In this document: one piece after another, positions 6,230 to 48,172 of the stretch | Layout of the letters: every line of letters begins with the position of its first letter | Position numbering within the stretch: position 1 is the first letter of the stretch | Assembly: GCF_032818155.1 (NCBI RefSeq) | Contig: NZ_CP102590.1 | Coordinates: 1,054,001-1,118,000, forward strand | Direction: 5' to 3' | Source of the DNA: Niallia taxi | Lineage (GTDB): Bacteria; Bacillota; Bacilli; Bacillales; Cytobacillaceae | DNA: 64,000 bases | The notes under the pieces: model-generated | What the model saw: only the letters and a program-made list of their open reading frames with translations | Told to the model about the DNA's origin: nothing | Databases searched by the model: none | Program-made: the position numbers and the translations under genes

Positions 6230-6769
6230 GTGTTTCAATCTAATGAGAAAGAAGAAAAGATACTAGAAATATATAATATGTACTATTTAGATGTATACCG
6301 TTTCTTAATTGTTTTTACAGGAAACCGCAGTGATGCAGAGGATTTTACACAAGAGGTATTTATTCGAGTACTTCATAATTTATCCGAGCTAAATCGAATC
6401 AGCCATTTAAAAGCATGGGTTATGTCGATAGCAAAGAATGTAGCGATTGATCATTATCGAAAGAGGCGCTGGCTTGTTTATCTTAGTGAAAAAGTATTAT
6501 GGAATGAAATAACAGCCGAAAAGGAACCTGATGTAATGCTTGAGCAGGATGAATTGAAAAAATATGTTCATGCAGCAATTTCAAAATTAAAGCCTCCATT
6601 TAGAGCAGTTGTTATATTAAGAGGAATTAATGAATTTTCTATCAAAGAAACTGCAGAGATACTTCAATGCAGTGAATCAAAAGTGAAGGTAAACTATCAT
6701 CGAGCATTAAAGGAGCTTAGAAGAAAGCTGAATGTTGAAAATGTGGAGGTGTTTATTAATGCGAACTGA
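6230..6769 (+). CDS. ECF-family RNA polymerase sigma factor
   Basis: The 179-residue protein has sigma region 2 (about residues 14-85, with YRFLIVFTGNRSDAEDFTQEVFIRVL and a region 2.4-like AKNVAIDHYRKR) and region 4 (about 110-168, with KETAEILQCSESKVKVNYHRALKELRRKL as the helix-turn-helix). The GTG start follows a GGGGGGA site; the ATG at 6228 is out of frame and soon stops. Its 3' end overlaps the next gene by 11 bp, so the two are translationally coupled. The partner encodes a single-pass membrane protein with an outer SpoIIP domain, so the sigma factor probably answers a cell-envelope signal. Confidence 0.93.
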   Translation: MFQSNEKEEKILEIYNMYYLDVYRFLIVFTGNRSDAEDFTQEVFIRVLHNLSELNRISHLKAWVMSIAKNVAIDHYRKRRWLVYLSEKVLWNEITAEKEPDVMLEQDELKKYVHAAISKLKPPFRAVVILRGINEFSIKETAEILQCSESKVKVNYHRALKELRRKLNVENVEVFINAN

Positions 6770-7676
6770 AAAAGAGCTAATGGAATTAATAAAAAGCTCC
6801 TATTCACTTGAGCCAAGGGAAGATTTCATTCAAGAGACAGAAAAAAAATTAAGACTTAAAGCAAGAAAATCTCGCAGCAAAAAGGCTGTTGGATTTCTAA
6901 CAGTTGCAGTAAGTGTTTTTATCTTAGGTTTCTTTGCTTTAACCTCATTCAATCAGCAGACAAAAGAACCAGCAATCCAGCTTTCCACAAATACGAATCA
7001 GTATCAACCTTCCACCATACTAACAGACGATCCTCTTGTGTATATAAGTCAAACACATAATTACGAATCCTTTTTACCTGAACTAACGGCAATTTACCCT
7101 GAAGAAACTTTTAATGTAAACGATAGTATCCATGAAACAATTAATATGACATTAGTCGGCCAAAGGCTAAGCAGCGCTTTAAAACAAAGGAATATCAATA
7201 ATATTCTTGATACTAATGATAATACAAAGCAGCTCCAGGAAAAGGAATTACCTTACCAAGATGCCTATAAAATATCGAGGATAAATATGCAAGACGCACT
7301 TATGAAGAATCAAAGCATTCAAATGGCATTTGATTTACATAGAGATTCTGCAAGAAGAGAAGTAACAACCTTGGAGATTGATGGCAAAGCTTATGCGAAG
7401 ATTACCATTGTTGTATCAGAAGGAGATGCGGGAAATTCTAATTATGAAAAAAACCAAGAGTTTGCGAGACAGCTTCATAAGAAAATAAATGACAAATATC
7501 CTGGAATATCGAGAGGTGTATTCTCGAAAAGCTATGACACTTATCAAAATCATTATAATCAGGATTTATTAAATCAATCTGCCGTCATTGAAATAGGTGG
7601 TTTTGAAAACACGTTAGAGGAAGAGTATAACACGGTGGAGGCTTTGGCGAATGTGATTCAAACATTGGTTAAGTAG
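6759..7676 (+). CDS. Membrane-anchored SpoIIP-domain protein, putative anti-sigma factor
   Basis: ATG 6759 follows GGAGG at 6745-6749 inside the sigma gene and gives 305 residues. Residues 1-41 are a charged cytoplasmic segment, 42-64 a single membrane helix, and about 92-303 match the SpoIIP peptidoglycan amidase/endopeptidase domain. The marks are VYISQTHNYESF (His100, Glu103), NMTLVGQRLSSAL, FDLHRDSAR (His194), NYEKNQEFARQLHKKIN and AVIEIGGFENTLEEEY (Glu278). The histidines and glutamates expected for zinc binding and catalysis in SpoIIP are therefore present. The overlap with an ECF sigma gene and the N-terminal helix layout suggest the cytoplasmic tail holds the sigma factor. Whether the domain cuts the wall or only senses it is unknown. 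It is shorter at the N-terminus than sporulation SpoIIP. Confidence 0.85.
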   Translation: MRTEKELMELIKSSYSLEPREDFIQETEKKLRLKARKSRSKKAVGFLTVAVSVFILGFFALTSFNQQTKEPAIQLSTNTNQYQPSTILTDDPLVYISQTHNYESFLPELTAIYPEETFNVNDSIHETINMTLVGQRLSSALKQRNINNILDTNDNTKQLQEKELPYQDAYKISRINMQDALMKNQSIQMAFDLHRDSARREVTTLEIDGKAYAKITIVVSEGDAGNSNYEKNQEFARQLHKKINDKYPGISRGVFSKSYDTYQNHYNQDLLNQSAVIEIGGFENTLEEEYNTVEALANVIQTLVK

Positions 7677-38965: not shown

Positions 38966-39904
38966 ATGAGCAAAAAAACAATGGGAATTCATCATATTAC
39001 AGCAATTGTCGGGCATCCACAGGAAAATGTTGATTTTTATGCAGGTGTATTAGGATTAAGATTAGTGAAACAAACGGTTAACTTTGATGATCCTGGAACA
39101 TATCATCTCTATTTCGGTAATGAAGGCGGCAAGCCTGGTACAATTATTACGTTCTTCCCATGGGCTGGAGCAAGGCAAGGGAAGATTGGAGATGGTCAAG
39201 TAGGTGTCACTTCTTATGCTGTACCAGTCGGAGCATTAAGTTTCTGGGAAAAAAGACTAGAAAAATTCAATATTCCTTTTGAAAAAGCGGAGCACTTTGG
39301 AGAAATGTATCTTGAATTTAATGATCCACATGGCCTTCAGCTACAATTAGTTGAAAGAGCAGAAGGAGAAGAAAATACTTGGACATTCGGCAATGTGACT
39401 CCAGATGTGGCCATTAAAGGTTTTGGCGGTGCAACATTGTTGTCTGCACAACCAGAAAAAACGGCTGAATTGTTGGAGCATGTAATGGGACTTGAAGTCG
39501 TCGGAAAAGAAACCGATATTATCCGATTCCGCTCAACAGCTGATATCGGTAATATTATTGATCTAAAAACAACGACTATTGGCAGAGGTGAAATGGGAGT
39601 CGGCACTGTTCATCATATTGCTTGGCGTGCTACTGATGATGCAGACCAATTAGACTGGCAGGAATATATCGCAGATAAAGGATATGGTGTAACAGCTGTT
39701 CGTGACAGAAACTACTTTAATGCTATCTACTTTAGAGAGCATGGAGAGATTTTATTTGAAATTGCTACAGATCCTCCAGGGTTTGCTCATGATGAAACGC
39801 TTGAAACAATGGGAACAAACTTGAAGCTGCCAGCGCAATATGAGCAGCATCGTGCACAGCTTGAGAAAGTCCTTATCCCAATTGAAGTAAAACAGCTAGA
39901 TTAA
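38966..39904 (+). CDS. mhqO: Ring-cleaving dioxygenase of the MhqO/MhqA type
   Basis: ATG 38966 is 9 bp after GGAGG; the ATG at 38961 stops at once. The 312-residue protein is two vicinal oxygen chelate halves. The first opens with GIHHITAIVGHPQENVDFYAGVLGLRLVKQTVNFDDPGTYHLYFG, the second has GTVHHIAWRATDD and ILFEIATDPPGFAHDE, giving the two His and the Glu that hold the iron. MhqO-type enzymes open hydroquinone or catechol rings during quinone stress. MhqR boxes in front and the neighbours support this; the regulator gene itself is not in the window. Confidence 0.9.
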   Translation: MSKKTMGIHHITAIVGHPQENVDFYAGVLGLRLVKQTVNFDDPGTYHLYFGNEGGKPGTIITFFPWAGARQGKIGDGQVGVTSYAVPVGALSFWEKRLEKFNIPFEKAEHFGEMYLEFNDPHGLQLQLVERAEGEENTWTFGNVTPDVAIKGFGGATLLSAQPEKTAELLEHVMGLEVVGKETDIIRFRSTADIGNIIDLKTTTIGRGEMGVGTVHHIAWRATDDADQLDWQEYIADKGYGVTAVRDRNYFNAIYFREHGEILFEIATDPPGFAHDETLETMGTNLKLPAQYEQHRAQLEKVLIPIEVKQLD

Positions 39905-39907
39905 CCG

Positions 39908-39936
39908 TGTGAAGCCATAGGTAATATGGCTTCACA
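39908..39936 (+). other. Hairpin between mhqO and doxX
   Basis: TGTGAAGCCATA (39908-39919) and TATGGCTTCACA (39925-39936) are perfect 12-bp arms without a T run. It may protect or process the transcript between the two genes. Confidence 0.6.
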
Positions 39937-39993
39937 GGAGGGTTATTTAAGTCACATAAAAAAATGAAGAAATAGTAGAGGAGAAGATAAAAA

Positions 39994-40383
39994 ATGGAAG
40001 ATTTAGGTTTATTATTAATTCGAGTAATGGTTGGAATTGTGTTTATGTTTTATGGATCACAGAAGCTGTTCGGATTATTTGGTGGACACGGAATAAAAGG
40101 AACAGGCGGCTGGTTTGAGTCTATTGGTGTGAAACCAGGGGTACCTGCAGCAGTATTGAGCGGCCTTGGTGAGTTCTTAAGTGGAATTTTGTTTATTATA
40201 GGTTTATTTTTACCATTGGCAGCAGCTATCATTACGATTATTATGGCAGGAGCAATTGTAAAAGTTCATGGTTCGAAAGGCTTTGCCAATGGTGCAGGCG
40301 GTTATGAATATAATTTAATGCTTATTGTTGTGGCAATTGGAATGGCTTTAGTTGGACCTGGAGCATTTGCATTAGGCTTATAA
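39994..40383 (+). CDS. mhqP: DoxX-family membrane protein, MhqP/CatD-like
   Basis: The 129-residue protein starts at an ATG behind GGAGAAG and has four helices. [64 protein letters not shown] is the DoxX hallmark. In Bacillus the related MhqP and CatD work with ring-cleaving dioxygenases in quinone and catechol resistance. It lies between two such dioxygenase genes here. Confidence 0.88.
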
Positions 40384-40406
40384 GAAATTAAGTAGGTATA
40401 CTGTTA

Positions 40407-40506
40407 TTGACCTTTATATATGTAAGTGATATAATTATCACGAATTAAAGATATCTTAATTAAAAATAAAAATATATTTTTTCGCTCATATCTCGATATC
40501 GAGATA
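40407..40506 (+). promoter_or_regulatory. Second Mhq promoter with a perfect MhqR box
   Basis: TTGACC (40407-40412), 17 bp, TATAAT (40430-40435). TATCTCGATATCGAGATA (40489-40506) is a perfect 18-bp palindrome and a near-exact MhqR box; ATTAAAGATATCTTAAT (40444-40460) is a weaker dyad. Confidence 0.82.
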
Positions 40507-40525
40507 AAAATAGGAGGACTATTCC

Positions 40526-41509
40526 ATGAATGAATTAAAAGGACTTCATCACATTACAGCAATTACAAGCAGCGCTGAAAAAATTTATGAGTTTTTTACT
40601 AATGTTCTAGGATTAAGACTTGTGAAAAAAACAGTTAATCAGGATGACATCCAAACATATCATTTATACTTCACTGATGATGTTGGCAGTCCTGGTACAG
40701 ACATGACATTTTTCGATTTTCCTGGTATCCCAAAAGGAGTGCACGGCACGAATGAAATTTCAAAAACCTCTTTCCGTGTGCCGACAGACGCAGCTCTTGC
40801 ATATTGGGTGAAACGCTTTGACAAATACGATGTAAAACATAAAGGCATTCAAGAGCAATTTGGTAAAAAGACGTTAGCATTTATCGATTTTGACGACCAG
40901 CAGTACCAGTTAATTTCAGATGAACAAAATGAAGGAGTTCCAGCAGGTACACCGTGGCAAAATGGTCCAGTGCCATTAGAATTTGCGATAACTGGTTTAG
41001 GACCAATTTTTGTTCGAACATCTTATTTTGATTACTTCAAAGAGGTATTGGAGAAAGTGTTCCTCATGAAGGAGGTAGGGCAGGAAGATTCATTCCATCT
41101 ATTTGAAATGGGTGAAGGCGGGAATGGTGCACAAGTAATCGTCGAATTCAATAACATTCTCCCTCAAGCGCGACAAGGATTTGGGACAATCCACCATGCT
41201 GCATTTCGTGTGGCAGATCGCGCTGAATTGGATGAATGGACAAATCGGTTATCAAGCTTCCAATTACCAAATTCAGGTTTTGTGGAGCGATACTATTTCG
41301 GATCCTTGTACTCTAATGTGGCACCACAAGTATTGTTTGAATTGGCAACAGATGGACCAGGATTCATGGGTGATGAGCCGTATGAAACGCTTGGAGAAAA
41401 ATTATCACTACCGCCATTCTTTGAATCAAAACGAGATGAAATTGAGCAGCTTGTCCGCCCAATCAACACCGTTCGCAGCAATCTAAAAATAGACAAAGAA
41501 TATTTGTAA
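40526..41509 (+). CDS. Second ring-cleaving dioxygenase (MhqO family)
   Basis: The 327-residue protein starts at an ATG behind AGGAGGA. It shares the double vicinal-oxygen-chelate build of the first enzyme (GLHHITAITSSAEKIYEFFTNVLGLRLVKKTVNQDDIQTYHLYF; GTIHHAAFRVADRAEL; VLFELATDGPGFMGDE) with the His, His and Glu ligands, but is clearly diverged, so the two probably accept different quinols or catechols. A perfect MhqR box in its own promoter and a flavin reductase gene 18 bp downstream complete the unit. Confidence 0.9.
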   Translation: MNELKGLHHITAITSSAEKIYEFFTNVLGLRLVKKTVNQDDIQTYHLYFTDDVGSPGTDMTFFDFPGIPKGVHGTNEISKTSFRVPTDAALAYWVKRFDKYDVKHKGIQEQFGKKTLAFIDFDDQQYQLISDEQNEGVPAGTPWQNGPVPLEFAITGLGPIFVRTSYFDYFKEVLEKVFLMKEVGQEDSFHLFEMGEGGNGAQVIVEFNNILPQARQGFGTIHHAAFRVADRAELDEWTNRLSSFQLPNSGFVERYYFGSLYSNVAPQVLFELATDGPGFMGDEPYETLGEKLSLPPFFESKRDEIEQLVRPINTVRSNLKIDKEYL

Positions 41510-41527
41510 TAAAAGGGGATTATGTTA

Positions 41528-42124
41528 ATGGGTTTTTTCAGTAAACTATTTGGAACAAAACAAGAGGAGGAACAAACAATGGAAAAATTAAATATCGGTA
41601 TTATACTTGGATCTACTAGAGAAGGACGTGTAAGTCCACAGGTTGGCGCATGGGTGAAGGAATTAGCAGATAAACGCGGTGATGCAAACTATACAGTTAT
41701 TGATATCGCTGATTATAAATTGCCATTCTTAGGTGAGCCAGGTGCGGATGCTTCAGGAGCTGCTGCTTGGTCTGAAATTATCGCGAAACAAGACGGCTTC
41801 GTATTTATCGTGCAAGAATACAACCACTCTATTACAGCAGCATTGAAAAATGCTTTAGACTTCCTTCGTGATGAATGGAATAACAAAGCTGCAGGTATTG
41901 TTTCTTACGGTTCAGTTGGTGGCGCTCGTGCAGCAGAGCATCTGCGTGGAATACTAGGAGAATTGCTTGTGGCAGATGTTCGTGTACACCCAGCATTGTC
42001 TTTATTCACTGATTTTGAAAATGGGACAGAATTCAAACCGAAAGAAGTTCAAGGAGAGTCAGTTAACCAAATGCTAGACCAAGTAATACCATGGTCAACT
42101 GCATTGAAAACTATCCGTAAATAA
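41528..42124 (+). CDS. NADPH-dependent FMN/quinone reductase
   Basis: The flavodoxin-like core LNIGIILGSTREGRVSPQVGAWV, VFIVQEYNHSITAALKNALDFL and GIVSYGSVGGARAAEHLR marks an NADPH-dependent FMN reductase, which in this context would reduce quinones or azo compounds to less harmful products. Two starts are supported. ATG 41528 is 9 bp after AAAAGGGG and adds GFFSKLFGTKQEEEQT; ATG 41579 follows a stronger AGAGGAGG (41563-41570) inside that extension and gives the usual family length. Both forms may be made. Confidence 0.88.
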   Translation: MGFFSKLFGTKQEEEQTMEKLNIGIILGSTREGRVSPQVGAWVKELADKRGDANYTVIDIADYKLPFLGEPGADASGAAAWSEIIAKQDGFVFIVQEYNHSITAALKNALDFLRDEWNNKAAGIVSYGSVGGARAAEHLRGILGELLVADVRVHPALSLFTDFENGTEFKPKEVQGESVNQMLDQVIPWSTALKTIRK

Positions 42125-42258: not shown

Positions 42259-43632
42259 TTACACTCGAGAATGAACTCTTTCCCCTTGAACCCAAACCTC
42301 TTTAATGTTTTCTGGGCGAACAAGATAAATGATCTTTTGGAAAATGTCATCTAAAGCTTCATGAGCATCAAAAATAGGAAGCTTTGCTGATGGCGTCTTT
42401 GTATCAATAATTTGGACGTCCCACGTATAGTTTTCTTCTAATTTTCCAATAGGCAGGCTTAAGCTTTCACCACCGCCAGCAGTAGCTAAATAAAAGGCTT
42501 CATGAATGGAAATACGAGAATCTGCCACGCCACGTTCTTCTGTACAAAGAGCGGTACTGACACCATCCTCTAGCATTCTAGACGAGACGACTGCTTGTTT
42601 GGCATTGTCATAAATACTCGGTGTAGCACCTGCTGAAATGTCTGTTCCAAGCCCTACATCGATTCCCATCGCTTGAAACCTTTTCAACGGCAATACACTG
42701 TTGGCAAAGTATGCGTTTGAGAGTGGACAGTGGCTAATGGCGGTACCAGTGCTAGCGAACAATTCAGCATCCTTGTCATCAAGGAAATTACTATGTGCCA
42801 TGACAGATTTATCGCCTAACAATCCGAAGTCATGAAGTGCGAAGGCATCATTTTTCTGGAATCTATCCTTCACATATTGATGAGCCCAATCACTTTCACT
42901 GCAATGTGACTGGATATGAGTGTCGTATTTAGCTGCAAGCTCACCAAGTCCTTTCAATGCTTCATCTGAACAGCTCGGGATAAAACGCGGAGTTACAACA
43001 GGGTAGACACCTTGCTTTACTTCCTTGGCTAAATCCTTCATTGCAAGGATAAACTCCTCCGTATCTTTTATAGCTGTTTTTGGATCTGCATCTCGGTAGT
43101 AATCTGGATTTTGGTCTGGATCATCCATGACTACCTTTCCAACAAGACCGCGTTGACCCTTTCTTGCACAAATTTCTGCTAATAACAAGCTTGCTTCCTT
43201 GTGGACTGTCGCAAAATACAGGACAGTAGTGGTTCCGTTAGCGAGTAATGTACTAACTAAATCCTCATACACAGTTTTGGCAAATGCCAAATCCGCATAT
43301 TTTGCTTCAAGTGGAAAGGTATACGTATGCAGCCAATCATACAGCGGAAGATCCAGGGCAGTACCTGATTGAGCCCATTGCGGAGCGTGAACATGTAAAT
43401 CGACAAAACCAGGTAAGAAATATTGGCCATCTTCCAACTGATGAAAGTTAGCTTCTTCTTGATGTTTAGCTAAAAGGGATGTGTAATCCTCTTGTTCAGG
43501 ACTAACAATCTTTTCGATTATCCCATTGTCATTTACAAAAAAGAGATGATTCTCCAAAATATTTACTTTTTCAGGAGAGTAACTGGTAAATGCGGTCCCA
43601 TGAAAAATATACGTATAATTAATAATAAACAC
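42259..43632 (-). CDS. guaD: Guanine deaminase (amidohydrolase family)
   Basis: The 457-residue protein has the amidohydrolase barrel with metal motifs DLHVHAPQW, SHCSES, AHSNF and GLGTDISAG, and PLYDWLHTYTFPLEAKY as in guanine deaminases of the ATZ/TRZ type. It turns guanine into xanthine and ammonia. The ATG follows AAGGTGT (complement). It is divergent from a guanine-riboswitch-controlled permease and Rieske oxygenase. It is unrelated in fold to the small deaminase at 23763. Confidence 0.92.
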   Translation of the reverse strand: MFIINYTYIFHGTAFTSYSPEKVNILENHLFFVNDNGIIEKIVSPEQEDYTSLLAKHQEEANFHQLEDGQYFLPGFVDLHVHAPQWAQSGTALDLPLYDWLHTYTFPLEAKYADLAFAKTVYEDLVSTLLANGTTTVLYFATVHKEASLLLAEICARKGQRGLVGKVVMDDPDQNPDYYRDADPKTAIKDTEEFILAMKDLAKEVKQGVYPVVTPRFIPSCSDEALKGLGELAAKYDTHIQSHCSESDWAHQYVKDRFQKNDAFALHDFGLLGDKSVMAHSNFLDDKDAELFASTGTAISHCPLSNAYFANSVLPLKRFQAMGIDVGLGTDISAGATPSIYDNAKQAVVSSRMLEDGVSTALCTEERGVADSRISIHEAFYLATAGGGESLSLPIGKLEENYTWDVQIIDTKTPSAKLPIFDAHEALDDIFQKIIYLVRPENIKEVWVQGERVHSRV

Positions 43633-43758
43633 CTTCCTATCGTTCGTGTTTTATGGTAATATAAATATTGTAATAGATGATTAATAGCTAGTCTACAGGA
43701 AATCAGATAGTTTTACTAGATTTTAAATATTAAGAAAAAACTATTTTTGAAAAATATC

Positions 43759-43786
43759 TTGCACTAAAAAAAAATCGTGGTATTGT
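43759..43786 (+). promoter_or_regulatory. Promoter of the purine permease operon
   Basis: TTGCAC (43759-43764), 16 bp, TATTGT (43781-43786), placed just upstream of the riboswitch. Confidence 0.5.
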
Positions 43787-43810
43787 AGTAAAAAACAAAA
43801 CTAAATAGTG

Positions 43811-43992
43811 TTTTTCATATAATCGTGGGGATATGGCCTACAAGTTTCTACCTGTTTACCGTAAATAAACTGACTATGAAAAGCAAAAAGAATGGTCTAT
43901 GGGTTTAGTCTATTCTTTTGATACTTTGAATCTATAAAGCTCGAAGTACATGCTTTTCTGTTGTCTGGAAAATTATGTATTTCGAGCTTTTT
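43811..43992 (+). promoter_or_regulatory. Guanine-class purine riboswitch with terminator switch
   Basis: The aptamer (43811-43883) shows the conserved ATAAT...GGATATGGC...AGTTTCTACC...ACCGTAAA...GACTATG. P1 pairs 43812-43819 with 43875-43882. The base that selects the ligand (position 74 in xpt numbering) is C43874, which marks guanine/hypoxanthine/xanthine rather than adenine. A terminator follows: AAAGCTCGAAGTACAT (43936-43951) with ATGTATTTCGAGCTTT (43975-43990) and T run. GAAAAGCA (43878-43885, the P1 3' side) can instead pair with TGCTTTTC (43951-43958), a ready antiterminator. Ligand binding should switch the permease and Rieske genes off. Confidence 0.93.
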
Positions 43993-44051
43993 GCGTTGGT
44001 AGAAACTTTTGATTATATGAATGTCTAGTAACCTACAGGGGGAATGGGAGA

Positions 44052-45395
44052 ATGGCAAAAGGTATGAAGGAGAATATGACGGGAGAAAAAGAAAATATTT
44101 CCGTTGGTAAGTCGATATTTTTAGGGTTACAGCAAGTATTAGCAATGGATTTATTTATTCCGCCAATCATCTTGGCAGGCTTACTTTCATTTTCTGTATC
44201 AGATAGTGCTTTGTTGATTCAAATGACATTTATTGCTTGCGGTATTGCCACAATTATTCAAGCAGGATTTGCAATGAGGCTTCCTGTTATGCAAGGGCCG
44301 TCATTTGTGCCATTAAGTGCACTGGCAGCAATTGGCACAACATCTGGTATTGGGGCGATGATTGGCAGTTTAATACCAGGTGCGTTAATCGTTGCTTTAT
44401 TAGGTTATCCGCTTAAGGTTTATAGTAAGGTCGTTAGAAAAATCATTCCACCTATCGTTGCAGGGACGGTGATTGTGGTTGTTGGACTTTCATTAATGCC
44501 AAGTGCCATTAATTCTATTTACTCAGCAGAAGGCAGCTTTGGAGAGAACATCCTTATTGCTACAATTACAGCTGCTATTCTTATATTTTGTATGTATGTT
44601 GGCGAAAAAGCGAAATCCAAATGGAAATATATTAAAGTTGTGTCCGTTGTATTAGCACTTATTATAGGTTCAATTATTGCTTCCTTCTTTGGATTAGTTC
44701 ATTTTGATTCGCTTAAGACTGCTGCATGGTTCCAAATGCCAGGTCTATTTTCATTCGGTATGCCAGAGTTTAATCTCCATGCCATTATCGTTATGATCGT
44801 TGTTTACCTTATTGTCACTATAGAAACTACTGGAACTTGGTTTACTGTAAGTAAAGTAACTGGCGAAGAGCTAGATGACAAGCGTTTAAATGGTGGAGCA
44901 CTTGGTGAAGGGTTAGGCTGTTTTGTTGGTTCCTTCTTTGGAGGAACACCCGTAACAGGTTATTCTTCTAATGCTGGTATTATTGCGATAACTGGAGTGA
45001 AGAGCCGTAAACCAATTATTGTAGGTGGAGTTATTTTAGTATTACTTGGCATGATGCCAAAGCTCACAAGCTTAATCGCATGTATTCCTAGTGTGGTTGT
45101 GAATAGCGTATTTGCGATTTTATGTGTTGTTATCATGATGAATGGTTTTAAAGTTATTAAAGATGAAGCATTCACTGAAAGAAATATGCTTGTTATCGGT
45201 GTCCCAATTATGCTTGCATTATTTGCTGTATTGATGCCTGCTGATGTGCTAGCAGGATTGCCGGAAATCGTTACTTATTTTGTATCATCTGGAACAGCTA
45301 TTGGAGCAATTGCTGCATTGGTACTGAACCTAGTGTTACCACAGAAAAAAGACGATAAAGTTAAAGTTAATGATGTTTCCATGAACGTAAACTAG
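44052..45395 (+). CDS. Nucleobase permease (NCS2 xanthine/uracil family)
   Basis: The 447-residue protein starts at an ATG behind GGGGGAATGGGAG. It has about 13 helices and the NCS2 motifs: LQQVLAMDLFIPPIILAG with the Gln-His region altered to QQ, VMQGPSFVPLSALAAIG, and EGLGCFVGSFFGGTPVTGYSSNAGIIAITGVKSR. It belongs to the proton-linked xanthine/uracil/uric acid permeases. Riboswitch control and the guanine deaminase next door point to a purine, perhaps xanthine, guanine or a methylated or oxidised derivative. The Rieske gene begins 24 bp downstream. Confidence 0.9.
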   Translation: MAKGMKENMTGEKENISVGKSIFLGLQQVLAMDLFIPPIILAGLLSFSVSDSALLIQMTFIACGIATIIQAGFAMRLPVMQGPSFVPLSALAAIGTTSGIGAMIGSLIPGALIVALLGYPLKVYSKVVRKIIPPIVAGTVIVVVGLSLMPSAINSIYSAEGSFGENILIATITAAILIFCMYVGEKAKSKWKYIKVVSVVLALIIGSIIASFFGLVHFDSLKTAAWFQMPGLFSFGMPEFNLHAIIVMIVVYLIVTIETTGTWFTVSKVTGEELDDKRLNGGALGEGLGCFVGSFFGGTPVTGYSSNAGIIAITGVKSRKPIIVGGVILVLLGMMPKLTSLIACIPSVVVNSVFAILCVVIMMNGFKVIKDEAFTERNMLVIGVPIMLALFAVLMPADVLAGLPEIVTYFVSSGTAIGAIAALVLNLVLPQKKDDKVKVNDVSMNVN

Positions 45396-45419
45396 GAAGA
45401 AAAAAGGAGAGTCAACACT

Positions 45420-46412
45420 ATGATGCAACAGGATAGACTATGGAATGAATGGCATCCAGTATGTAAAGCAGAGGAGCTATTAGAAGATCCCAAGCAAGTA
45501 TTTGTGCTTGGCGAAAGAGTCGCTATTTTCCGAAATGAAAAGGGAGTTCATGCCTTTAAGGATTTATGTATCCACCGTGGTGCTGCCCTTTCGCTTGGAA
45601 AGGTGAAAAACGGGAATTTAGTGTGTGCCTACCATGCTTGGGAATATGATTGTGTAGGAGCATGTGTAAAGATACCTGCCCTTCCAAATGGCAGAGCGAT
45701 TCCAAAAAAGGCTAAAGCGACTGTTTATCATTGTGAAGAATATCTTGGGCTGATTTGGGTGAACTTAGGCGACAATCCGTCGCCGCTTATTTCTTATCCA
45801 GAATATAACATGGAGAATCACCGTACTGTCATTTGTGGCCCATATGATGTAAATGCAAACGCACCAAGAATTATCGAGAACTTTCTTGATGTGTCACATC
45901 TTATGTTCGTACATGAAGGCTTATTAGGAGACGAGGAACATGCGGAAGTAGTAGATTATAAAGTAGATTTTATCGATAATCGCTATATTACAAGCAAAAT
46001 TCCTGTTTACCAGCCAAATCCAGATGGCCGTTCAAAAGGCGGGTATGCAGACTATGTATACGAAATCTTAAATCCAACAACAGCTCGATTTACGAAAACA
46101 TCTGAAGGCTCTGATGATGCATTAACGATTCTGCTAATTGTTAATCAAGCGGGAAATGAACAATCACAGGCTTATATGCTGTTAACAAGAAACTATGATT
46201 TGGATATGCCTGACGAACCATTTGTTGAGTTCCAAGACACGATTTTTTATCAGGATCTTGATATTGTACAAAGTCAAAAACCAGAATTGCTTCCGTTAGA
46301 TTTACAAGCGGAATTACATCTTAAATCAGATGCGTTAACAATTGCTTATCGCAGATGGTTAAATCAATTGGGTGTTGAGAATGGGACTACACCAGTATTA
46401 GAGAGAGTGTAA
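45420..46412 (+). CDS. Rieske non-haem iron oxygenase, alpha subunit (VanA/NdmA-like)
   Basis: The 330-residue protein follows AAAGGAGAG. Its Rieske domain (about 8-115) binds the 2Fe-2S cluster with Cys50-x-His52 and Cys69-x2-His72. The C-terminal domain holds the mononuclear iron with NFLDVSHLMFVH (Asp157, His160, His165). The single-subunit build and NFLDVSH are typical of O- and N-demethylases such as VanA and the methylxanthine enzymes NdmA/NdmB. It shares a riboswitch-controlled transcript with a purine permease, so I infer an oxidised purine substrate, for example N-demethylation; that is not shown. No reductase partner is in the neighbourhood. Confidence 0.9.
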   Translation: MMQQDRLWNEWHPVCKAEELLEDPKQVFVLGERVAIFRNEKGVHAFKDLCIHRGAALSLGKVKNGNLVCAYHAWEYDCVGACVKIPALPNGRAIPKKAKATVYHCEEYLGLIWVNLGDNPSPLISYPEYNMENHRTVICGPYDVNANAPRIIENFLDVSHLMFVHEGLLGDEEHAEVVDYKVDFIDNRYITSKIPVYQPNPDGRSKGGYADYVYEILNPTTARFTKTSEGSDDALTILLIVNQAGNEQSQAYMLLTRNYDLDMPDEPFVEFQDTIFYQDLDIVQSQKPELLPLDLQAELHLKSDALTIAYRRWLNQLGVENGTTPVLERV

Positions 46413-46438
46413 GCGCGGGGATACCCGTGCTTTTTTTA
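46412..46438 (+). terminator. Intrinsic terminator after the Rieske gene
   Basis: GCGCGGG and CCCGTGC pair around GATA and lead into seven T residues. Confidence 0.88.
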
Positions 46439-46530
46439 TTGCGGGCAGGTGGAAACAATTATTATACGTTTTTAAGATTTATTTTGTCCGATCTTTAATA
46501 TAATGAAAAAAAAAGACAGGAGTTAGGACA

Positions 46531-46992
46531 ATGACTGAATTTCACGAAATAAAAATTATCAACACACAAAAAAATAATATGATAGATATTATATATTTTC
46601 ACGATGATTTTTTTGGATATCTTGAAGAAGCACATCCTCGTCAAATAGAACTGTTAAATAATCTCCCGGTTTTTTATCCAGATAATATAGATTTCAATCA
46701 TTTATCTGTACAAGATTTTAAGTTTTTAAAAAAATTCCATACAAAGAAAGCAACAGAAAAAGGTATTTCTTTAGCAGGAATAAGTATAATCAATGGTTGT
46801 TCTTTTGAAGAATTATTAGACATAAGTAAACAGTTAATAATAGCTGAAAATTCAGTTGATTATACACCTAATAAATTCGTTAATACTTTTACAAAAGATG
46901 AAACGAAAAGTAATCTTGAAAAATTATCAACTATATTGAGTAATATATCGCTACATAAAACAGAATATATATTGCTGTGGGAAGGTATTTAA
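46531..46992 (+). CDS. Protein of unknown function
   Basis: An ATG behind AGACAGGAG gives 153 residues, AT-rich and poor in Gly and Ala compared with its neighbours. No membrane segment or signal peptide is seen. Phrases such as HDDFFGYLEEAHPRQIELLNNLPVFYPDNIDFNHLSVQDF resemble small acidic immunity or accessory proteins in a general way only; I cannot place it. The skewed base use hints at transfer, and the degenerate element copy D lies just after it. Confidence 0.6.
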   Translation: MTEFHEIKIINTQKNNMIDIIYFHDDFFGYLEEAHPRQIELLNNLPVFYPDNIDFNHLSVQDFKFLKKFHTKKATEKGISLAGISIINGCSFEELLDISKQLIIAENSVDYTPNKFVNTFTKDETKSNLEKLSTILSNISLHKTEYILLWEGI

Positions 46993-47302: not shown

Positions 47303-48172
47303 ATGAAAAAGAGTGTGATGAAAATGAATAAACAAAGAAGTGGTAATTCGGGCTCTAACCGTACTCCGTTAACCCAATCTAGTTTACAGGCAACGTCAAG
47401 CTATACTGTCAACATAGCAGTTATTGGGGATAGTCATGTAGGCTATTTGAACAGCCAAAGTATTTTTAATAATTTTCTCCCAAGGGCGATAAATAGTGGG
47501 ACGAAAAGGTATGTCATTTTTGGCGGAGACAATGCCCATGCATTAGGAGCTTTTACAACAGCAGAGGCGCGAAGCTATTATCAGCAGTTCAAAAACATTG
47601 TGGATCACAATTTAGGACCGAAAAATATCTACTATCGGACATCAATAGGAAACTGGGAGGATACGAGCAGAAATGATAGTAGGAATTTATTTCTGCAATA
47701 TTTTAACCCGTTAACAGGCAGGGTGAGTATTCCGAGAACTCGAGGGTTAGTGCAGCATGTATGGCTTGATAATGGGACGGGGACATTCAGCCAAGACAGT
47801 ATTAATCTATTAAATAATTTAGATCCTAATCATTACTATATTATTGATACACATTGGCCTCTTTATGTACCAGGAATCTATAATACAGTTAGTTCTGATC
47901 ATGTCGTGAGCAGACAAGAAACAGACCGGTTTTTTAATGCAATTCCAGCTAATGTAAGGAGCAGAATCCTTGGTATCTTCACACATCATGCCCATGTTTT
48001 TTATTCAAAGCTAACAAATATTCATGCTAACTTTCCGAATACCCCATTTTTTGTGACTGGTTGTTCTGGTGATTATAAATGTTCTTCCTTTGAAAGTGGA
48101 TACTATGATGCAGACATAACCATCCAAAGTAATAACCAAGCATCCTTACAGGTAAGAGAAGTGATTCTTTAA
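47303..48172 (+). CDS. Calcineurin-like metallophosphoesterase, divergent
   Basis: The 289-residue protein has the metal motifs in order: IGDSHVG (Asp43, His45), FGGDNAH (Asp76, Asn77), IGNWED (Asn117), DTHWPLY (His184) and THHAHVF (His229, His231). The usual GNHE/D has Trp118 in place of the catalytic His, so proton donation must differ. The N-terminal 35 residues are polar and disordered-looking, without a signal peptide. The ATG lies after AGGAAG; ATG 47321 is an alternative start. Substrate unknown. Confidence 0.8.
   Translation: MKKSVMKMNKQRSGNSGSNRTPLTQSSLQATSSYTVNIAVIGDSHVGYLNSQSIFNNFLPRAINSGTKRYVIFGGDNAHALGAFTTAEARSYYQQFKNIVDHNLGPKNIYYRTSIGNWEDTSRNDSRNLFLQYFNPLTGRVSIPRTRGLVQHVWLDNGTGTFSQDSINLLNNLDPNHYYIIDTHWPLYVPGIYNTVSSDHVVSRQETDRFFNAIPANVRSRILGIFTHHAHVFYSKLTNIHANFPNTPFFVTGCSGDYKCSSFESGYYDADITIQSNNQASLQVREVIL

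Follow-up and report, generated by a model that had tools for sequence, protein, structure and literature searches.

What does a Rieske oxygenase do behind a guanine riboswitch? The question is posed by a stretch of 64,000 nucleotides from Niallia taxi (NCBI RefSeq assembly GCF_032818155.1, contig NZ_CP102590.1, positions 1,054,001 to 1,118,000 of the forward strand), which is here called the window and to which all plain coordinates refer. On its plus strand a riboswitch, a nucleobase permease of the NCS2 family, a Rieske non-haem iron oxygenase and a terminator follow each other in this order, and a guanine deaminase is encoded divergently on the opposite strand. The parts are known; their association is new. 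The unit of riboswitch, permease and oxygenase is real and conserved, and it is highly probable that the oxygenase acts on a purine. The full reading that we favour is a purine-scavenging operon that guanine switches off, that imports guanine-type bases, demethylates them oxidatively at nitrogen and is fed by a ferredoxin. It is offered tentatively: it carries substantial weight, if not the greater part of it.

In full-text searches, outside of which subscription papers mostly remain, no report of a guanine riboswitch paired with a permease and a Rieske oxygenase was found, and the combinations "7-methylguanine" with "Rieske" and "purine riboswitch" with "ring-hydroxylating" yielded nothing.

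The unit and its conservation

The oxygenase gene (45420-46412, plus strand) encodes the domains PF00355 and PF19112. The residues C50/H52/C69/H72, D157, H160/H165 and D279, which we take to be the metal ligands, are invariant in 45 aligned sequences, and the complete enzyme with both metal sites that the initial annotation had seen in the letters therefore stands. The oxygenase forms a clade of its own (see below). A gap of 24 bases separates it from the permease gene (44052-45395, plus strand; PF00860, 255.8 bits), and directly 3' of it lies a terminator-like hairpin (46411-46432, plus strand; a 9-bp stem and a T run, −16.2 kcal/mol). Because of this short gap and this hairpin, the transcript most simply comprises permease and oxygenase. 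The next open reading frames (ORFs) downstream, 46531-46992 and 47303-48172, matched no Pfam family at E 1e-5. The guanine deaminase annotated on the minus strand (42259-43632) is indeed one, of the amidohydrolase type; it scores 422.6 bits with TIGR02967 (cut-off 375.4) and is the genome's single match above that cut-off.

A scan for the oxygenase over a genome collection of 84,980 species, made with query peptides that detect close orthologues only, returned 23 loci, 22 of full length at 74-100% identity and one fragment. The window's protein is 100% identical to the copy of Niallia taxi M5HDSG1-1. A pairing not conserved in relatives had been named in advance as a finding that would refute the purine-oxidation idea, and it did not turn out so: in all 22 full-length loci the permease lies directly upstream of the oxygenase and a purine riboswitch precedes the permease. 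The divergent guanine deaminase accompanies them in 17 (in L010 the match is split in two pieces). Apart from permease, oxygenase and deaminase, each ORF family occurs in at most four of the 23 loci. An even sample of 299 Bacillales genomes contained 32 with a relative of the oxygenase at E 1e-20, and only three of these relatives are of the window's type, here called clade A, namely the window itself and two that probably correspond to L021 and L027. The unit is thus present across many genera, yet patchy. An oxygenase is thereby added to the guanine-riboswitch regulon, as part of a transporter-enzyme pair that many genera have kept.

The fragment (L030, Cytobacillus firmus, about 6668-7204) consists of abutting remnants of guanine deaminase and oxygenase, without a purine riboswitch. 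It may reflect a loss of the unit or a fault of the assembly.

The riboswitch

The aptamer (43795-43896, plus strand) is the sole gathering-level Rfam match inside the window. It scores 86.6 bits with RF00167 (gathering threshold 37, E 2.7e-14). By eye, its core comprises GTTTCTACC, CCGTAAAT and GACTATG, and the ligand-selecting position in junction J3/1 is a C (43874), as the initial annotation had said, which marks the guanine and not the adenine type. Equally by eye, this C is present in all 22 orthologous loci, and J2/3 reads GTTTCTACC in all of them with the sole exception of L020. As far as the letters tell, the ligand core is canonical.

A hairpin at 43936-43990 (plus strand) is the candidate intrinsic terminator. 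It folds with −26.8 kcal/mol (z −6.4; 0 of 200 shuffles equally stable) and ends in a U run; for the whole leader the folding z is −6.2. A U-tailed hairpin of −19.3 to −36.0 kcal/mol, counted without shuffles, is found in 22 of 22 leaders, a set that consists of the window and the 21 loci L009-L029 and excludes the Niallia taxi copy L008. A simple pattern scan for terminators found none in the leader, probably because of a mismatch within the stem.

The putative antiterminator pairings extend over 43878-43958 (plus strand). The 3' strand of helix P1, GAAAAGCA (43878-43885), is complementary to TGCTTTTC (43951-43958) in the apical part of the terminator (window p 0.016), and the terminator's 5' arm TCGAAGTA (43941-43948) has its complement in TACTTTGA (43922-43929), a short way upstream of the hairpin (window p 0.038). 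Over the 22 leaders, p ≤ 0.05 was reached in 17 for the former pairing and in 12 for the latter; in this comparison with shuffles the segments beside the terminator were picked after viewing the leaders, and the values are uncorrected for multiple tests. The readable pair of terminator and antiterminator that had been claimed for the leader could thus be recovered. In the usual OFF design the ligand would close P1, the antiterminator would be lost and the terminator would form. The architecture suggests such a transcriptional OFF switch with guanine as the signal, and the response in the cell is presumably the same.

Of the C-type purine riboswitches in this genome whose core is canonical, the other four precede xpt-pbuX, guaA, pbuG and purE, names that were assigned by reading translations. 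To judge from these, they all serve the supply of guanine nucleotides, which we count in favour of a scavenging function. The guanine riboswitch operons of Bacilli (xpt-pbuX, pbuG, purE; RF00167) resemble that of the window in the aptamer, the J3/1 C, the terminator platform and the permease as a target; the window's operon, however, ends in a Rieske oxygenase. Another purine-sensing riboswitch associated with oxygenases is NMT1, which responds to xanthine and uric acid and occurs with hpxD-like genes. It belongs to an unrelated RNA class, works by platforms that sequester the ribosome-binding site, and goes with HpxD/HpxE-like and alpha-ketoglutarate-dependent oxygenases (PMC7373994).

Two further purine riboswitches were encountered. 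One, in the window's own genome (G000:C1:161233-161332, which is L007 1501-1600, minus strand), scores 71.4 bits and has an off-consensus core: AATTGG instead of ATATGG, GTCTCTAC in J2/3 and AGCTACG in J3/1. It directly precedes a gene for 5'-deoxyadenosine deaminase (L101 1353-2711, minus strand; PRK07228, 722 bits, cut-off 522) and is possibly a variant with a different ligand. The other is an extra one in Salirhabdus (L017 3759-3860, 86.8 bits). It lies upstream of that locus's first purine riboswitch and has the guanine deaminase on one side and an inserted ORF on the other.

The oxygenase and its relatives

To which enzymes is the oxygenase related? A quick tree with support values from the SH-like approximate likelihood ratio test (SH-aLRT) gives a provisional answer on how clades A and B relate to NdmA/NdmB and HpxD. 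Clade A groups neither with NdmA and NdmB (29-31% identity), which form their own branch (support 100), nor with HpxD (31-32%). Clade B is our label for rows at 45-56% identity; they are not one clade in the tree. A first group of them (L066, L067, L069-L071, L074-L076; support 99) is in 8 of 8 cases divergent from an NCS2 permease of the window's subtype. The second (L072, L073, L077-L082; support 100) has that permease adjoining in 0 of 8, and L068, which branches alone, is also without it. A class-wide sample added the divergent permease in 11 of 12 further clade B loci, all 11 in one family.

Riboswitches near these oxygenases were sought with Rfam in L066-L078 and L081-L083 (15 clade B loci and L083) and in L122-L126. 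For L079, L080, L084-L097 and L127-L133 a regular expression alone was used. Of 27 known aptamers it detects 22, and the one in L125 escapes it; it matched in L084 and L085, both of clade A. The sole purine riboswitch of the clade B Rfam scan (L125 5438-5537, minus strand; f68 set) lies about 1 kb from the permease-oxygenase pair and precedes an ORF of 502 residues that by eye resembles an FAD oxidoreductase.

Clade C stands further off (31-35% identity). Fourteen of its 15 rows group with annotated HpxD (SH-aLRT 99), the fifteenth, L083, being a very long branch elsewhere, and two of its proteins are 51% and 55% identical to the HpxD of Paraburkholderia. In one fetched set, 10 of 12 clade C loci sit among three recurrent gene families (puc clusters), which in L090 are allantoinase, aminotransferase and allantoate deiminase; there, 2-oxo-4-hydroxy-4-carboxy-5-ureidoimidazoline (OHCU) decarboxylase, hydroxyisourate hydrolase and PucR were also confirmed. 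In L072 and L073 the genes for a clade C oxygenase, a ferredoxin and an oxygenase of clade B stand in tandem.

The motif NFLDVSH of the window's enzyme had been described as one seen in VanA, NdmA and NdmB. The last two, however, read NFTDFSH, and FLDV[SAG]H is common to clades A, B and C and to HpxD, with single-residue exceptions, so that the motif gives no substrate. At the place of NdmA position 282 all rows of clades A and B have Gln, as has NdmB; HpxD and clade C have Asn. PDB titles mention a "QL mutant" of NdmA; a literature search for NdmA N282Q/F286L gave no result. A structure model was built with 37 sequences, in place of a single-sequence one with a pLDDT of 37.4. The nearest solved folds are those of NdmA/NdmB and of SxtT and GxtA, Rieske oxygenases of the saxitoxin pathway. 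The substrates of all these are purine-like, a point for a purine. SxtT and GxtA are biosynthetic, however; only homology links them to the window's enzyme, and their sequences are absent from the tree.

Could the enzyme be a methylxanthine (caffeine-type) demethylase that supplies xanthine to xpt? With NdmA and NdmB it shares the Rieske domain and a VanA_C-type catalytic domain with intact predicted ligands. The low identity and the separate branch, already mentioned, speak against this idea, the permease is of another subtype (the ndm-linked one retains the canonical QN motif, that of the window does not), no Fer2-bearing NdmD-like reductase was found in the genome, and the guanine deaminase next door would be left unexplained. 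We consider a methylxanthine demethylase decidedly unlikely.

Purine metabolism of the hosts

HpxD is a Mo-independent xanthine hydroxylase (hpxDE), hence a Rieske oxygenase that acts on a purine; it is similar to the window's enzyme in length and about 31% identical. By this analogy the latter would be a carbon hydroxylase for hypoxanthine or xanthine that does the work of xanthine dehydrogenase without molybdenum, and the fact that 11 of 19 clade A genomes are without the MoCoBD (xanthine dehydrogenase-type) subunit would fit. The idea follows the model of hpxDE in Klebsiella. Bacillales, however, have a separate HpxD branch, clade C, with its puc clusters; clade A stands apart from it and has Gln where HpxD and clade C have Asn.

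The contents of 46 genomes tell the two apart. OHCU decarboxylase is present in 18 of 18 genomes with clade C versus 6 of 28 others (Fisher p 5e-8, the genomes being related and thus non-independent). Where this decarboxylase is present, all 6 genomes that do not have clade C possess the MoCoBD subunit as well, against 7 of the 18 that do (p 0.016). Since the decarboxylase is always there and the MoCoBD subunit often missing, clade C seems to serve the urate route as a substitute that needs no molybdenum. Clade A gives no such picture: OHCU decarboxylase is present in only 5 of its 19 genomes, and both the decarboxylase and the MoCoBD subunit are missing from 11. In the 14 hosts without the decarboxylase urate would be a dead end, and because 11 of these are also without the MoCoBD subunit, the simplest account is probably that the product of the oxygenase can only be salvaged by the cell.

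In the window's own genome one cluster (G000:C1, about 2505800-2513400, L099) encodes xanthine dehydrogenase of the pucD type along with hydroxyisourate hydrolase, OHCU decarboxylase and allantoinase; no PF01014 uricase match was found in this genome. A substitution for xanthine dehydrogenase by the Rieske oxygenase was rejected for this genome, as the dehydrogenase is already there. Orthology of clade A with HpxD was likewise rejected, since tree and genome contents place HpxD with clade C. Two HpxD records also have a reductase or rubredoxin gene adjoining, which the window's oxygenase has not. An HpxD-like hydroxylation is unlikely, though it retains a modest share of our belief. The purine-linked Rieske oxygenases of Bacillales are better divided into an HpxD-like group of the urate route and a salvage-like group.

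The permease

The permease scores above the cut-off of the general NCS2_1 model and falls short of that of TIGR03173 (PbuX; 370.3 bits, cut-off 414.15). In a quick tree with long branches, the permeases that partner clade A and clade B fall into a single clade of 41 rows (SH-aLRT 100), separate from the QN-type permeases, which include PbuX of the same genome (a partial sequence) and UacT of E. coli. The subtype, compared here with inclusion of 11 class-wide clade B partners, is marked by a two-residue deletion in the first transmembrane segment (TM1), by ETTGTW in TM8 and by Y-S/A-S/T-N-A-G in TM10 (YSSNAG in the window).

In UapA, Gln408 contacts N1-H and C2=O of xanthine, and Glu356 contacts N7-H (PMC4837479). 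The Glu is retained at its place in the subtype, and the place of Gln408 is taken by Ser or Thr in 22 clade A loci and 19 clade B partners; the Gln of QN-motif purine permeases is thus lacking. Because the Glu is kept and the Gln replaced, the permease appears to read the edge of the base that distinguishes xanthine from guanine differently from the QN-type permeases. An NCS2 subtype with an altered substrate-reading residue is now marked out.

What might it carry? On a plasmid of Latilactobacillus curvatus, a permease with the same features (41.6% identity) overlaps a guanine deaminase gene (TIGR02967, 389 bits; 46% identical to the window's); no oxygenase was found within the 13.3 kb examined. 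No other single observation hints as strongly as this operon at a guanine-type base as the cargo of the subtype. It would also suit the rival view that guanine itself, or xanthine derived from it, is the substrate, imported under classical feedback, with the oxygenase opening a non-urate oxidative branch. Guanine riboswitches normally govern guanine uptake, which would agree with that. It would make little sense, however, to oxidise guanine away during its scarcity, and no gene downstream of the oxygenase is kept along with it. We rate this view as improbable.

Equally improbable, in our judgement, is a substrate that is not a purine at all, the position behind a purine riboswitch being a matter of history. 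Of course, the family is catalytically broad, and some relatives lie in contexts without a purine look. Yet order and switch are identical in 22 of 22 loci, and one permease subtype accompanies clade A as well as 19 oxygenases of clade B.

Electron supply

The initial annotation had stressed that a reductase partner is missing. Indeed, the Fer2 search of the genome gave two hits, both small subunits that adjoin molybdenum-hydroxylase genes, and no VanB-like or NdmD-type reductase, so that a partner as expected for a VanA-type oxygenase was not found. Of the 19 clade A genomes, G309 contains an open frame as long as VanB that gives a full Fer2 hit; in G305 the hit of such a frame is marginal and partial, and in six genomes the Fer2 search found nothing. 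Nor was an HpxE-type (PDR/VanB) reductase seen next door, or a plant-type ferredoxin motif in any ORF of the loci. The search for an HpxE neighbour is a weak test, as the annotated HpxD of Paraburkholderia has a rubredoxin and an FAD oxidoreductase instead.

There is no special mystery in this. A ferredoxin gene lies beside the clade C oxygenase in 7 of 14 loci (L072, L073, L086-L097; the 4Fe-4S family was checked in one), and this ferredoxin has two homologues, at 74% and 56% identity, in the window's genome. For these reasons an ordinary 4Fe-4S ferredoxin is the likely electron donor.

Proposed function

Taken together, the favoured scavenging operon would work as follows. When guanine is plentiful, the riboswitch would shut the operon; when it is scarce, the antiterminator would form and permease and oxygenase would be made. 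The symporter, whose subtype would suit bases of the guanine (2-amino) kind, would import a base that is not directly usable. The oxygenase would oxidise this base. In the likeliest case it is a methylated guanine that stems from RNA turnover and loses its methyl group by oxidative N-demethylation, with electrons probably from a general 4Fe-4S ferredoxin rather than a dedicated VanB-type reductase. The released guanine would enter the salvage to guanosine monophosphate or be deaminated by the divergent guanine deaminase, and recovered guanine would repress the operon via the riboswitch, which would close the loop. The guanine-type substrate and the N-demethylation are what we infer here. A narrower version is possible, if rather doubtful: upon guanine starvation, N1- or N2-methylated guanines from the decay of transfer and ribosomal RNA would be imported by a dedicated NCS2 subtype and demethylated by the new Rieske clade with a housekeeping ferredoxin. 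If the demethylation is borne out, it would mean that cells reclaim guanine from methylated RNA bases.

A route for oxidising or demethylating a purine had been suggested at the outset. Its purine-type substrate remains probable. Degradation fits badly, because by its architecture the switch is turned off by guanine, and because neither the MoCoBD subunit nor OHCU decarboxylase is present in 11 of 19 hosts; the salvage of some uncommon base of the guanine type is the better fit.

Several observations weigh against the scavenging operon. The deaminase is absent from 5 of the 22 loci (three Allobacillus and two Alkalibacillus), and no third gene, for instance for the handling of formaldehyde, recurs near the 23 loci. 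Antiterminator pairing is not significant in some leaders, and an earlier, broader duplex test gave z values from −2.8 to 1.4, about 0 for most leaders and mostly non-significant. In none of the clade B loci scanned was a purine riboswitch found beside the pair, and 9 of 17 order-wide clade B oxygenases have no permease of the same subtype adjoining (8 have); neither switch nor permease is therefore essential to the wider group of oxygenases. Tree neighbours outside Bacillales (Mycetohabitans, and oxygenase 2 of a Pantoea plasmid) lie amid genes that do not look purine-related. The MoCoBD subunit is present in 8 of the 19 clade A genomes. The permease-deaminase operon of the lactobacillus is a single record, and Limosilactobacillus fermentum, which has a permease of the same subtype, shows no such deaminase within 13.3 kb. 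As to the particular base, 7-methylguanine is not preferred, since the Glu by which UapA contacts N7-H is retained in the permease.

Neighbouring genes and replicon

Beyond the guanine deaminase, at 38966-42124, two ORFs of the glyoxalase superfamily flank a DoxX ORF and are followed by an ORF of the FMN reductase family, all according to Pfam. Among the 23 loci this set occurs only in that of Niallia taxi, L008; in L021 a homologue of the FMN reductase ORF (family F10) lies downstream of the oxygenase. The window's contig (G000:C2) measures 1.44 Mb. In Niallia taxi a permease with 99% identity is found on a contig of 1.3 Mb and bears the label "(plasmid)"; because of this label, the window may be located on a secondary replicon.

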